Shown here: positions 43,611 through 51,672 of the stretch, in pieces | Layout of the letters: each line of letters starts with the position of its first letter | Position numbering within the stretch: the stretch's first letter is position 1 | Origin: Chryseobacterium flavum | GTDB lineage: Bacteria > Bacteroidota > Bacteroidia > Flavobacteriales > Weeksellaceae | DNA: 64,000 bases | Reading direction: 5' to 3' | Assembly (NCBI RefSeq): GCF_003385595.1 | Contig: NZ_QNUE01000007.1 | Coordinates: forward strand, 62,001 to 126,000 | Notes under the pieces: model-generated | Database searches by the model: none | The model's input: only the letters and a program-made list of their open reading frames with translations | What the model was told of the DNA's origin: nothing | Position numbers and translations under genes: made by a program

Positions 43611-46457
43611 TTATTTTATATTCAGATCTACAGAATTCAATCTTAATGAATTCAGAATAACAGACAACGAACTTACGCTCATAGCTGCTGCTGCAATCAT
43701 CGGGGACAACAGAATTCCAAAAAATGGATACAATAATCCTGCCGCTACAGGGATCCCGAGAATATTATATATAAATGCAAAGAATAGATTCTCTTTTATA
43801 TTTCTCAGAAGTTTCTCGCTCAGCAATTTTGCTTTGGCCACCCCCAGAATATCTCCTTTAAGTAAGGTGATTTCCGCACTTTCAATCGCTACATCCGTTC
43901 CGGTTCCCATTGCAATTCCAACATCAGACTGCGCAAGAGCAGGGGAGTCATTAATTCCATCACCGGTCATTGCTACAATTTTTCCCTGCTGCTGAAGTCT
44001 TTTAACTTCATTTAGTTTGTCTTCGGGTAAACAGTTAGCTTTAAAATGCCTGATTCCCAATTCATCTGCTACCGCTTTAGCGGTGTGTTCATTATCTCCG
44101 GTCATCATTATAATATCAATTCCTTCACTCATTAATCTTTCTACTGCTTTTTTGGAGCTCAACTTAATTTTATCTGTAAAACTTATAAAGCCCAAAACAT
44201 TCTGATCTTCGGCGATATATGAGATTGTATGTGCTTTTGTCTGCACCTCGACAGCTTTTTTCTTCAAGCTGTCCGGGATGAGAATCTGGTGAGATGTTAA
44301 AAGACTTTCGTTTCCAAGGTAAGCTGTTTTACCATTAATATTTCCTTTAACTCCTTTTCCTGAAATATTTTCGAACTGTTCCACTTTTTCAGCAGAAATA
44401 TTTTCATCTTTAGCTCTTTTGATCACGGCATTGGAAAGTGGATGCTCTGAATTCTGATTTAATGAAAAAGCTAGCTTTAAAATCTGTTCTTTGTTATTAT
44501 TATCTAAAGCTTCAATATGTTCTACAGATGGTTTCCCTTCTGTTAAAGTCCCCGTTTTATCTGTGATCAGTACATTTATTTTATTCATCTGCTCAAGAGC
44601 TTCTGCATTTTTAATCAGAATTCCGTTTTTGGCACCTTTTCCAATTCCTACCATTAAAGACATAGGTGTGGCTAATCCAAGAGCACATGGACATGCTACA
44701 ATTAAAACTGCTACCGCATTTACAAATGCAAATAAACTTCTTTTTCCTTCAGGACCGAAAAGTTGCCACAGAACAAAGGTTAATACAGCAATGAGAATCA
44801 CAACAGGAACAAATACTTTTGATACTTTATCCGTTAGTTTCTGAATGGGAGCTTTACTCCGGCTGGCCTCATTCACCATTTTTATAATCTGAGAAAGGAG
44901 TGTCTCATCACCTACTTTTTCAGCTTTCATTATAAAAACCTGGTTGCCGTTAATGGTTCCGGAAGAAACTTTGTCATCAATATTCTTTTCTACGGGTACG
45001 GGTTCTCCCGTAATCATGCTTTCGTCCACCACAGAGCTGCCTTCGGTAATCTTGCCATCCACGGGAATTTTTTCACCGGGCTTTACCTTTAAAAGGTCTC
45101 CGATTTTTACCTGGGATAACAAGACCCTTTTTTCTTCACCATTTACAATAAGATTGGCTTCGTCAGGTGAAAGATTCATTAATTCCTTAATTGCATTCCC
45201 TGTTTTTTTATGGGCTGCTGCTTCCATAAGCTGGCCTAATATAACCAGTGTTAAGATAACACAGACCGCTTCAAAATATAAAGGGATTTCATGATTATGG
45301 CCCCGGATCTCATGAGGGATAATATCAGGAAAAGCCAAAGCAGTAATACTGAATAAAAATGCCGCAGCTACTCCTAATGCAATCAGACTAAACATATTAA
45401 GATTCCATGTCCGGAAGGAAACCCAGCCTCTTTTCAAAAGAAACCATCCTGAATAAAACATCACCGGAAGGGTTAAAGCCAGTTCAATAAAACCCTGTAT
45501 CTGATGTGAAAAAGGGAAACTGATAAACATTCCTCCCATTGAAAGAATAAAGACAGGAATCGTAAATGCGAGTGAAATAATAAATTTCCTTTTTAAAATA
45601 TTGTAGGTTTCATCTTCTTCGTCATTGCTTTTGTCAGGCATTCTTACCAGATCCATTCCGCAAATAGGACAGCTTCCGGGTTCATCACGTATGATTTCCG
45701 GATGCATCGGACAGGTATATTTTGCTGTTTTCTTTTCAGGGTATTTTACAAGGTCCATTCCGCAGACAGGGCATCCGACATTGGAATCATATGTTTTATC
45801 ACCTTCACAATACATCGGGCAGTAATATCTGCCTGCCATTTCATCAGTCACTTTTGGTGCTTGGTGATGGGCGTGATGATGATCGTGTGAATGTGAATGA
45901 TGCGAACCTTCTTTTTGAACGAGTTGTTCAGTGATGGGTTCCAGATGCATATGGCAAACGGGACAGTCTCCTTTTTCAGTGTACACTTTATCACCTTCAC
46001 AAAACATAGGGCAGTAGTATTTTCCTATGCTGTCTTTAAAGTTTTCAGGAAGGTTGGCTGCAGAATAAGTAGGCTTGTGATTAGGATCTTTAGCCAGCTT
46101 TTCTTCAATAGGTACAAGATACATTCTGCACACAGGGCATCTTTCCCCTTGTTTGAAATAGACTTTATCGCCTTCACATTCCATTGGGCAATAATAAACT
46201 GAAGATGGAGATACCCGGTCCTGAGGTTTTATAAATGATTTATCCGCAGATTCCGGATTTTCAAGTTTATAATTTCCAATTTCAGCTAAAGCATTGTTTA
46301 AAGCAGAAAGGTCAACGTCTTTATCAGACGTGATCGTTGCGGTATTGTTTTCCAGATTTACATCAGCTGTAATACCTTCAATACTGTTCAGCTGGTCTGA
46401 AATTTTTTTCCGGCAACCTGAGCAGGTCATTCCTGATATCTTATACTGTAGCTCCAT
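43611..46457 (-). CDS. copA: Copper-translocating P1B-type ATPase with HMA and four heavy-metal-binding repeats
   Basis: 948 residues, long for CopA. Residues 1-66 are an HMA domain with CSGC (12-15). Four repeats of the heavy-metal-binding domain (Y-x-C-P-M ... C-P-[VI]-C-x-M) follow at about 88-117, 147-175, 211-239 and 247-274, with a histidine-rich linker ([14 protein letters not shown]) between the second and third. The P-type core has eight membrane segments, the CPC ion motif at 589-591 ([12 protein letters not shown]), phosphorylation motif DKTGT at 633-637, and the MTGDN and [10 protein letters not shown] motifs. CPC plus the N-terminal domains indicate monovalent copper (or silver) export. 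It lies 142 bases downstream of an HMA-AraC regulator on the same strand, which is likely its regulator. Confidence 0.95.
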
Positions 46458-46599
46458 GACTCTTAAATTTATACTTACAAATTTCCAAAATAGAAATCTA
46501 AGGTTGTTATAAATTTAAGGATAATAGTTATAGAATTTTGAATTAAGGTTTGGAGTGTTTGAAAGCAAGGAAATATTAATGCAACATATCTCTTGCCGG

Positions 46600-47160
46600 C
46601 TAAAGGTTATCCAAGGATTTTCTATTGTGTATTTTTAGCTTTTTAAATTCAGTGGGAGTAAAGCCAGTACTGTTTCTAAACTGCGTTGATAAGTGCTGAA
46701 CGCTTTTATAACCGAGTTTCCCTGCAATTTCAGTAAGAGTAAATTCATTATAGAAAAGAAGTTCTTTAACTTTTTCAATTTTTTGAAGAATGAAAAACTG
46801 TTCTAATGTAATATTTTCATTTTGTGAGAAAGTTTTGGAAAGAGCACTGTAATCTTTATGAAGCTTTGAACTAAGAAATTCAGAGAGTAAAAAGTCTTCT
46901 GAAATGTCAAGTTCACTGATTTTAATGATGATCAGTTTCTTAATTTTCTCAATCAGCTGATGGGCTGAATCCATAATTCTTTCAAAACCGGTTTCAATCA
47001 ATTGCTTTTCAATAGTCCTTAGTTGTTCTACAGACAATTCTGATATGGTTTCTACTTCTCCCAAAATAACAGAAGTGGTTTTTATGTCAGCTTTATTAAA
47101 AATTTCTTCAACAGCAGTAATACAGCGGTTACAAACCATGTTTTTTATAAAGATCTTCAT
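46600..47160 (-). CDS. AraC-family regulator with N-terminal heavy-metal-associated-like domain
   Basis: 186 residues. The first ~65 residues follow the HMA fold: MKIFIKNMVCNRC (Cys10, Cys13, i.e. M-x-C-x-x-C), then a helix TAVEEIFNKA, a strand VILGEVETISEL and a closing IETGFERI. A linker helix (about 70-85) leads to a C-terminal AraC HTH (about 105-180: EKVKELLFYNEFTLTEIAGKLGYKSVQHLSTQFRNSTGFTPTEFKKLK). I know this architecture from many Bacteroidetes next to copper ATPases, but its sensing has, to my knowledge, little direct evidence. It overlaps the thioesterase gene by 4 bases and precedes copA, so it probably senses copper through Cys10/Cys13 and controls copA. The overlap with thioesterase suggests co-expression with it. 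Confidence 0.88.
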   Translation of the reverse strand: MKIFIKNMVCNRCITAVEEIFNKADIKTTSVILGEVETISELSVEQLRTIEKQLIETGFERIMDSAHQLIEKIKKLIIIKISELDISEDFLLSEFLSSKLHKDYSALSKTFSQNENITLEQFFILQKIEKVKELLFYNEFTLTEIAGKLGYKSVQHLSTQFRNSTGFTPTEFKKLKIHNRKSLDNL

Positions 47161-47552
47161 AGATTATTATTTAATCTGTCCTTGACAAATTCAATACGGG
47201 TTTTACCATGAGGAGCGGGATTACCATCAGCATCAAGGTTGACCATTACAATTTTATCAACAGTAATAATCGTTTGGTGGGTCATTTTATTGCGGACATC
47301 ACATTTCAAAGTAATAGAGGAAGTACCAAAATGTATTGCTTCAATCCCAATTTCAATGATATCTCCCTGTTTTGCAGAGCTTACAAAATTAATTTCTGAA
47401 ATAAATTTTGTAACCACTTTTGTATTTTCCAGTTGGATAATGGCGTATAGTGCAGCTTCTTCATCAATCCATTGCAAAAGTCTGCCTCCAAAAAGCGAAT
47501 GATTAGGGTTCAAGTCCTCAGGTTTTACCCATTTTCTGGTATGATAGTTCAT
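47157..47552 (-). CDS. Acyl-CoA thioesterase, hotdog fold (YciA-like)
   Basis: 131 residues forming one hotdog domain. The YciA/BACH-type active-site region is NPNHSLFGGRLLQWIDEEAALYAI, with the conserved Asn/His and the catalytic Asp of the W-I-D-E helix, and ISEINFVSSAKQGDIIEIG continues the beta-sheet. It hydrolyses acyl-CoA. The gene ends overlapping the start of the HMA-AraC gene (ATGA), which makes translational coupling likely. Why a thioesterase sits at the head of a copper cluster is unexplained. Confidence 0.88.
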   Translation of the reverse strand: MNYHTRKWVKPEDLNPNHSLFGGRLLQWIDEEAALYAIIQLENTKVVTKFISEINFVSSAKQGDIIEIGIEAIHFGTSSITLKCDVRNKMTHQTIITVDKIVMVNLDADGNPAPHGKTRIEFVKDRLNNNL

Positions 47553-50563: not shown

Positions 50564-51061
50564 TTATACTTTTTTCTTTTTTTTCTTTTTTTCTTTCTCC
50601 TTATCCTTTTCTTTGTCTTTTCCTTTTGATTTTTTTTCTTTTTTAGGATTTAGAATCTCTTCAGCATATTCAAATTTTGGCTCTTCTGTTTTTGTAGGCT
50701 TTATTTCAATTTTTAAATCAAAATATCCTTTCAGATCATCCTGTGATATTAACTTTTCTTTACATAAAAACTCCAGGATCTCTTTGCCTGAATCATTAAA
50801 GAAATTATGGGAAAGCTCTCTCAGAAGAAATGTTTTATATTCTTCAATAGGCACAAGTACTGAGTATTTGAAAATCCTTCCTTCTTTTACAGTAGATAAA
50901 TATCCTTTTTCAACTAATATCTTCAAATAAGTAGATACTGTATTCTGGTGTGGTTTGGGTTCCGGATGCTGTTCCATAATATCTTTAAGATAAAAGGAAT
51001 TCAGCTTCCAGAACAGCTTCATAAAATTTTCCTCTGCAGCAGTAAGATGATTTATTTTCAT
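50564..51061 (-). CDS. BlaI/MecI/CopY-family repressor with lysine-rich tail
   Basis: The ATG at 51061 (MKINHLTAAEENFMKLFWKL) is preferred; an open extension to 51094 overlaps the upstream gene. Product 165 residues. The N-terminal 80 residues are a penicillinase-repressor winged helix (HQNTVSTYLKILVEKGYLSTVKEGRIFKYSV). The C-terminal 30 residues are almost only Lys, Glu, Asp and Ser and likely disordered. BlaI-type repressors are usually released by a membrane sensor protease; no such BlaR1-like gene is here, but a membrane protein of unknown function (DUF4153) follows 15 bases later. The PAP2-like gene lies just upstream. Confidence 0.85.
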   Translation of the reverse strand: MKINHLTAAEENFMKLFWKLNSFYLKDIMEQHPEPKPHQNTVSTYLKILVEKGYLSTVKEGRIFKYSVLVPIEEYKTFLLRELSHNFFNDSGKEILEFLCKEKLISQDDLKGYFDLKIEIKPTKTEEPKFEYAEEILNPKKEKKSKGKDKEKDKEKEKKKKKKKV

Positions 51062-51069
51062 ATATTTTT

Positions 51070-51672
51070 CTAATGTTGAAATTGTATATTGCAATAAAGA
51101 TAAATAAAAGATACCAGAAATGCTATTCCAGCTCCCATAAATACTTCTTTAACCGTGTGTCTCTTTAATATAATTCTTGTAATTCCGACCAAAACTGCAA
51201 TGCCCAGCCAGATTAATCCTGTTTTCCAGTCCAGTGAAAAAAATAAAGCTGCTACAAATATATTAAATGCTGTATGCATTGAACTTTTAATATAAAGATT
51301 GCTGATCTGCAGGGTAAAAAGAAGAATCAGAATAAATAACATGACAAAGTCAATATAGCCGTTTCTGATATAATTAAAAATAAGATAGGTGATTACACAG
51401 ACTGCAATAAAGATATAAAGTGTTTTCCTTTGCTGTCTGTTGGAAACATCCATATTGGTATATCTTCCTGTTCTGACATTCCATACCAGCCATATAATAA
51501 CAGGGATAATAATCATTAATAATATAGGAAGAAAATAAAGTAAGGAATCATTAAATGAATATTTCCTAATGCTCATATATATAAAAAAAATAATAAGTGA
51601 AACAAGCGGATTGAAAAAATCTGAAATTACTTTTGATATTTTGTGTATTAATGAAGACTGTTTTTCTTCCAT
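51070..51672 (-). CDS. PAP2-like integral membrane protein (degenerate motifs)
   Basis: The ATG at 51672 is used; a TTG at 51678 is less likely. Product 200 residues with about six transmembrane helices. The fold and motif spacing resemble PAP2 phosphatases: SSMHTAF stands where PSGH is expected and TRIILKRHTVKEV where S-R-x5-H-x3-D is expected, so the last residue is Glu instead of Asp and motif 1 (KxxxxxxRP) is not clear. Either a divergent lipid phosphatase or an inactive relative. It ends 8 bases before the BlaI-like gene on the same strand, pointing to one operon with the repressor and DUF4153. Confidence 0.65.
   Translation of the reverse strand: MEEKQSSLIHKISKVISDFFNPLVSLIIFFIYMSIRKYSFNDSLLYFLPILLMIIIPVIIWLVWNVRTGRYTNMDVSNRQQRKTLYIFIAVCVITYLIFNYIRNGYIDFVMLFILILLFTLQISNLYIKSSMHTAFNIFVAALFFSLDWKTGLIWLGIAVLVGITRIILKRHTVKEVFMGAGIAFLVSFIYLYCNIQFQH

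Follow-up and report, generated by a model that had tools for sequence, protein, structure and literature searches.

The AraC/XylS activators (AraC, MarA, SoxS and GadX) have a DNA-binding domain in common with the regulator described here, and AraC occupies a direct-repeat site with a 21-bp period next to its promoter, a layout much like that which we predict for the regulator. Where AraC carries a sugar-binding arm, however, the regulator has a 63-residue HMA-like sensor, and its predicted signal is a metal. This sensor shares its fold order and the place of its CxxC motif with HMA metallochaperones and the metal-binding domains of CopA (CopZ, Atx1 and GolB), but it has diverged to below the Pfam cut-off and is joined to a DNA-binding domain. 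The task predicted for the regulator, that of a cytosolic Cu(I) sensor activating copA, is also that of CueR of the MerR family, which acts through promoter distortion (PMC7558416); the two are nevertheless unrelated in protein, metal site and DNA site, and the regulator would, on our prediction, work from the −33 side. Copper-export genes are also controlled by CsoR and CopY (PMC7558416), but these repressors are unrelated to the regulator. Excerpts of a 2020 review name MerR, CsoR, CopY and ArsR as the Cu(I)-sensing families for copper efflux, with AraC unmentioned there (PMC7558416), and excerpts of a 2023 survey report no copper sensor of the one-component type for its marine Bacteroidota (PMC10141476). 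The HMA–AraC family would fill this gap in Bacteroidota and, if our reading is right, would be a further copper-sensor family. No description of an HMA–AraC copper sensor was recognised in a literature search by title and start of abstract, mainly among papers outside the subscription journals, and the regulator gene is not treated in the searched parts of PMC5458099, PMC9723704, PMC7366714 and PMC10710014. It appears that the regulator is a type of copper sensor so far undescribed for Bacteroidota.

The regulator gene lies in a 64,000-nucleotide stretch of Chryseobacterium flavum DNA (contig NZ_QNUE01000007.1; the whole stretch is hereafter called the window), at 46600–47160 on the minus strand, as are all of the window features located below, and it encodes 186 residues plus a stop codon. 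Residues 97–174 (46639–46872) matched the Pfam model HTH_18 with an E-value of 1.1e-12 and a score of 48.5 bits (cut-off 33.6); the match runs over profile positions 2–79 of 80, indicating a nearly complete AraC domain, with the approximately 100 residues and two helix-turn-helix units of the AraC/XylS family. In structural comparison, AraC-family structures aligned with residues 64–180 at Z-scores of 8.7–15.4. Sequence searches of Pfam, NCBIfam and the PDB with the regulator recovered essentially the AraC half alone, and the HMA half therefore required a fold model and profile comparison. Against the Pfam HMA model (PF00403) the N-terminal part scored 10.6 bits, under the gathering cut-off of 24.8, and we therefore call it HMA-like rather than a Pfam member; an HMA match at E≤0.01 was found in three of 60 aligned family members. 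The CueR model (TIGR02044) and the CsoR model (PF02583) were absent from the NCBIfam and Pfam matches of the regulator, respectively, at E≤1, and the CopY model (TIGR02698) was absent from its NCBIfam matches.

An AlphaFold model of the regulator built on 60 aligned members (mean pLDDT 90.3) showed strands at residues 2–6, 28–32, 35–38 and 60–62 and helices at residues 11–23 and 44–56, i.e. the β-α-β-β-α-β order of HMA, followed by a linker helix (residues 65–82; 46915–46968) and then the AraC domain. The HMA-like domain itself takes up residues 1–63 (46972–47160). Its C10-N-R-C13 motif (47122–47133) contains the presumed Cu(I) ligands Cys10 (codon at 47131–47133) and Cys13 (codon at 47122–47124) and is situated, as in the HMA fold, between the first strand and the start of the first helix; both cysteine residues are invariant in an alignment of 60 rows that were picked as CxxC members. 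When 97 family N-terminal stretches were compared using hhalign with 71 HMA stretches taken from neighbouring CopA and chaperone genes, a probability of 97.4% (E = 1.4e-11) was obtained with the CxxC motifs aligned, against 0.4% for receiver domains and 0.2% for the family's own AraC domains as controls. In structural comparison HMA chaperones aligned with residues 1–63 at Z-scores of 7.3–8.1 and ACT domains at 7.4–8.0; fold matching alone was dropped as proof of HMA, since the ACT domains score so close over the same residues. The protein is a real fusion, an AraC-family one-component regulator with a divergent HMA-like domain as its sensor, which upholds the sequence-only reading of a 186-residue protein joining a CxxC-bearing HMA-like fold (Cys10 and Cys13) to an AraC helix-turn-helix.

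On the same strand, 142 bp downstream of the regulator, lies copA (43611–46457), which encodes a P1B ATPase; Pfam finds one HMA stretch and four HMBD stretches in it. The protein scored 588 bits against the Cu-ATPase model TIGR01511 (cut-off 397) and contains the CPC motif of the P1B-1 class, so the regulator does sit directly upstream of a CopA gene, as first noticed from the sequence. At its other end, the regulator start is overlapped by 4 bp by a thioesterase-like gene (4HBT in Pfam; 47157–47552), and an overlap of 1–4 bp was kept in 23 of 23 Chryseobacterium loci; the regulator is probably expressed together with this upstream gene. A sigma-70 and terminator scan was uninformative for promoters, its 10 promoter-like sites comparing with a mean of 8.2 after shuffling, and found no terminators. 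The claim that the classic sensors CueR, CopY and CsoR are absent from the window held in that none was found at cut-off, but must be qualified for a BlaI/CopY-type repressor ORF at 50564–51094, which scored 44.5 bits to the CopY model (cut-off 121.95). Similar BlaI/CopY-type ORFs occur near the regulator in several further Chryseobacterium genomes.

We analysed the linkage to metal-export genes in 141 loci, made up of the best 120 of a longer match list, 20 loci from another search and the window. These hold 148 family ORFs, 109 with the CxxC motif and 39 that have lost it; the ORFs were called by a simple script, which makes their starts approximate, and some loci run to the end of a contig. 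Among the matches listed, a P1B ATPase gene was present in the same orientation, no more than 3 kb to either side, for 70 of the 109 CxxC members and for none of the 39 CxxC-lost paralogs, and 69 of the 109 were still counted when the ATPase was required to lie downstream and to exceed 400 residues. With all copper-export type genes considered (P1B ATPases, RND pumps, multicopper oxidases, CusB-type, HMA and ArsP–HMA), the corresponding numbers within 4 kb were 90/109 and 1/39. The fusion is thus found beside copper genes in other genomes, a check that the sequence-only reading had itself named. CxxC-lost paralogs often adjoin histidine-kinase, receiver, CsbD, ferritin-like, YtxH and cupin genes. 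At three loci (L041, L042 and L048) a CxxC member is followed by an ArsP-type permease with a fused HMA domain, and no ATPase, possibly another metal exporter.

In a quick tree of the family, the metal-linked CxxC members fall in one fully supported clade of 103 rows, 13 of which are without a copper-export type gene within 4 kb, some of them near contig ends. Six CxxC members outside this main clade had no metal gene within 4 kb among the matches listed, and the simple rule that CxxC means metal linkage was rejected on their account. Independent-pairs tests gave three pairs for CxxC against ATPase linkage, none of them informative, and a single pair for loop type against pump class, and many independent origins are therefore not claimed: the ATPase contrast between CxxC and CxxC-lost members is strong numerically but essentially one split on the tree, with few evolutionary events. 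The same division is seen within the genome of the window, which has four full-length family members. Two keep the CxxC motif and each precedes a different Cu-type ATPase; the other two have S-L-R-C and N-A-L-C in its place, and no copper-export gene class was found within 4 kb of either. Among the matches listed, the nearest named relatives of the regulator are from Chryseobacterium.

The residues within the CxxC loop were compared with the class of the downstream pump, assigned by script using motif rules that we take to be those of the P1B literature. Among the matches listed, a Cu-type pump followed 54 of the 56 C-x-R-C members that have an ATPase downstream, the two exceptions being one CPH type and one (L117) left unclassified by the script rule, with a tail that looks like the Zn/Cd type. 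C-S/E-H-C members, of which 15 were listed, form one nested clade in the quick tree, and of the 13 with a downstream ATPase among the matches listed, 12 preceded a Zn/Cd-type and one an SPC-type pump. The window regulator has C-N-R-C beside a Cu-type pump, and we therefore infer Cu(I) as its signal. In principle the two cysteines of a CxxC motif could pair in a disulfide, and with a related clade adjoining Zn/Cd-type pumps it is conceivable that the motif answers to some other thiophilic signal (zinc, cadmium, mercury or disulfide stress), with copA as one output among others. The C-x-R-C loop beside a Cu-type pump nevertheless places the window protein with the 54 pairs above, and the single site found for it in the genome is at copA; we consider such a signal improbable. 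As separate observations, the C-S-H-C members at L165, L170, L172, L176, L178, L182–L186, L188 and L196 lie shortly before Zn/Cd-type ATPases of 645–659 residues and are possibly a zinc or cadmium version of the HMA–AraC sensor. Near the C-S-H-C/Zn-pump pair of L170 a second member (C-D-R-C or C-G-R-C) is encoded on the opposite strand (L170:6056–6631), and similarly at L178 and L182, so that each of these three loci has two family members.

In Chryseobacterium the gap before copA, 142 to 392 bp in total, has one conserved block, TATAAC-N15-TATAAC and then GGAAATTTG. In the window the 21-bp direct repeat, our predicted operator, is at 46506–46532 and is followed at fixed spacing by a −7-like box, GAAATTTG, at 46478–46485. 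The site was present in 22 of the 23 Chryseobacterium loci, starting 73–75 bp before copA; the exception, L029, had no site match within 450 bp, and the next such ORF is about 1 kb off. A genome scan with the window's site gave this copy before copA as the sole match with three or fewer mismatches, and we therefore infer no wider regulon. Excerpts of two studies place the flavobacterial sigma-A box TAnnTTTG at −12 to −5 (PMC9723704) and describe a TTTG motif near −33 that was deduced for Bacteroides fragilis and unconfirmed in Flavobacterium johnsoniae (PMC7366714). With the box set at −12 to −5, the two half-sites of the window would lie near −59 to −55 and −38 to −34 in the copA promoter, and copA transcription would start near 46473, giving a 16-nt leader. 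Such a layout, a 21-bp direct repeat extending to the −33 position, is that of AraC-family activators.

With the repeat covering roughly −59 to −34 of the copA promoter, control by Cu(I)-dependent activation is the most likely, and we hold it likely that the regulator is a cytosolic one-component Cu(I) sensor activating copA. Cu(I) would be bound by the HMA-like domain via Cys10 and Cys13, and metal loading would alter how the AraC domain, probably dimeric on the repeat, engages its predicted site. The bound regulator may then substitute for the −33 element and recruit RNA polymerase to the −7 box, with the Cu(I) pump being produced as copper rises. Metal, direction and DNA site, all beyond the sequence-only reading, can accordingly be put forward as predictions: the pump class points to Cu(I), the position of the site points to activation, and the site itself would be 46506–46532. 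Repression by the metal-free protein, which would sit on the repeat and block copA until released by Cu(I), would agree with the mode of the CsoR-, CopY- and ArsR-like copper sensors in excerpts of the 2020 review (PMC7558416), and the predicted site does abut the copA promoter. The repeat, however, stops approximately 34 bp short of the predicted start, with a fixed 25–26 nt to the −7 box, rather than lying over the box or the start. This is the position in which AraC-family activators stand next to RNA polymerase, and we think repression unlikely.

The direct-repeat site beside a promoter that is typical of AraC/XylS regulators is in this case a predicted one, a 21-bp repeat found to be conserved by comparison. 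Groups other than Chryseobacterium have other letters in the alignments but a common site plan, T[AG][CT]A[AC], 16 bases and T[AG][CT]A[AC] (TRYAM-N16-TRYAM, 21-bp period). The pattern was read off these alignments, and the unseen, CxxC-lost and strictly new sets of loci are out of sample. The 21-bp repeat was present in the 3′ flank of 52 of the 103 clade loci, against 1–17 for other periods and 1/103 in the 5′ flank; about half of the clade loci are thus without a strict repeat. Of 47 unseen clade loci, 13 had the repeat (mean 1.83 and maximum 8 at other periods), as did 14 of 39 CxxC-lost loci (mean 1.37, maximum 7). The site alone therefore gives no proof of metal sensing, as CxxC-lost paralogs have the same kind of site; the repeat grammar is present in some of these 39 paralogs with S-L-R-C or no CxxC (e.g. 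L039:8014–8574 and L040:7735–8316). A further 80 loci were the best 80 of a longer list of matches, from which three duplicates were removed; four more rows repeated earlier regulators, and the strictly new set drops all seven. Among the matches listed, the strictly new set had the repeat in 19 of 26 named loci of the Chryseobacterium group and in 20 of 49 loci of other taxa (other periods: mean 2.23, maximum 6), the counts before full duplicate removal being 20/27 and 21/52.

The spacing to the −7 box is similarly regular. TTTG began 25 or 26 nt past the repeat at 31 of 69 sites in the first locus set and at 19 of 24 sites in the second group of further loci (L237–L287), which held three Chryseobacterium-group loci that were moved in the strictly new count. 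Repeat and TTTG spacing together were found in 67 of 221 loci at period 21 (mean 0.29 and maximum 2 elsewhere, among the matches listed), in 15 of 64 representatives of less than 60% identity (maximum 1 at other periods), and in 18 of the 49 strictly new loci of other taxa (again maximum 1). The other members in the genome of the window have sites with TTTG that agree at 9/10 positions in the 3′ flank (L038 and L039) or at 10/10 in the 5′ flank (L040). The suggestion that the fusion serves Bacteroidota as a copper sensor gains on both counts, from the tie of CxxC members to copper-export genes and from a predicted DNA site at fixed spacing before copA.

We also looked at other copper sensors in the genome and in the phylum. 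CsoR (PF02583) had no match in the window's genome and matched in 44 of 148 sampled genomes. At cut-offs that may not suit Bacteroidota, CueR (TIGR02044) was found in none of 148 genomes (best score in the window's genome 34.9 bits against 147.4), CopY (TIGR02698; cut-off 121.95) in none of 24 and the CopR model in none of 24; in one genome (G089) a CueR-like match of 124 bits and a family member lie some 3.2 kb apart. As these cut-offs may misfit the phylum and the window's genome has 28 CopR-type model matches, all under cut-off, a copper two-component system is conceivable. Control of copA by such a system or by another regulator, with the HMA–AraC protein a minor or unrelated neighbour, would be in keeping with CueR-like matches in other Bacteroidota that score as high as 135 bits (cut-off 147.4), with the annotated CusR reported in excerpts of the Chryseobacterium oranimense genome paper (PMC10710014) and with the excerpted marine-bacteria survey, in which Bacteroidota have two-component and ECF sigma copper systems only (PMC10141476). 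The recurrence of both linkage and site over many genera, together with the two CxxC paralogs placed before different Cu-type ATPases in one genome, argues against a mere neighbour, and we rate this explanation as very improbable.

The family is widespread: at E≤1e-20 a match was found in 96 of 198 sampled Bacteroidota genomes and 59 of 103 genera, using a profile that includes CxxC-lost paralogs. A match was also present in 29 of 72,556 plasmid records, these 29 coming from ten genera, all of which we take to be Bacteroidota. Plasmid members had generic regulator names or no annotated feature, or were in records without annotation; with these names and an HMA domain under the Pfam threshold, the family is easily missed. 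A broader proposal, to which we would give an even chance, is that HMA–AraC proteins make up a further cytosolic metal-sensor family and are the widespread one-component copper sensor of Bacteroidota, with C-x-R-C marking Cu(I) and C-S/E-H-C zinc or cadmium. All would use one operator grammar, a 21-bp repeat locked to a −7 box, which paralogs without the first cysteine residue would keep while serving stress and histidine-kinase genes. With the predicted operator and the difference between the Cu and Zn loops, both DNA binding and the choice of metal can be tested directly. At L191, a locus that also has an HMA–AraC gene, a CueR/MerR-like gene (L191:9760–10199) comes right after copA, a possible case of double control.
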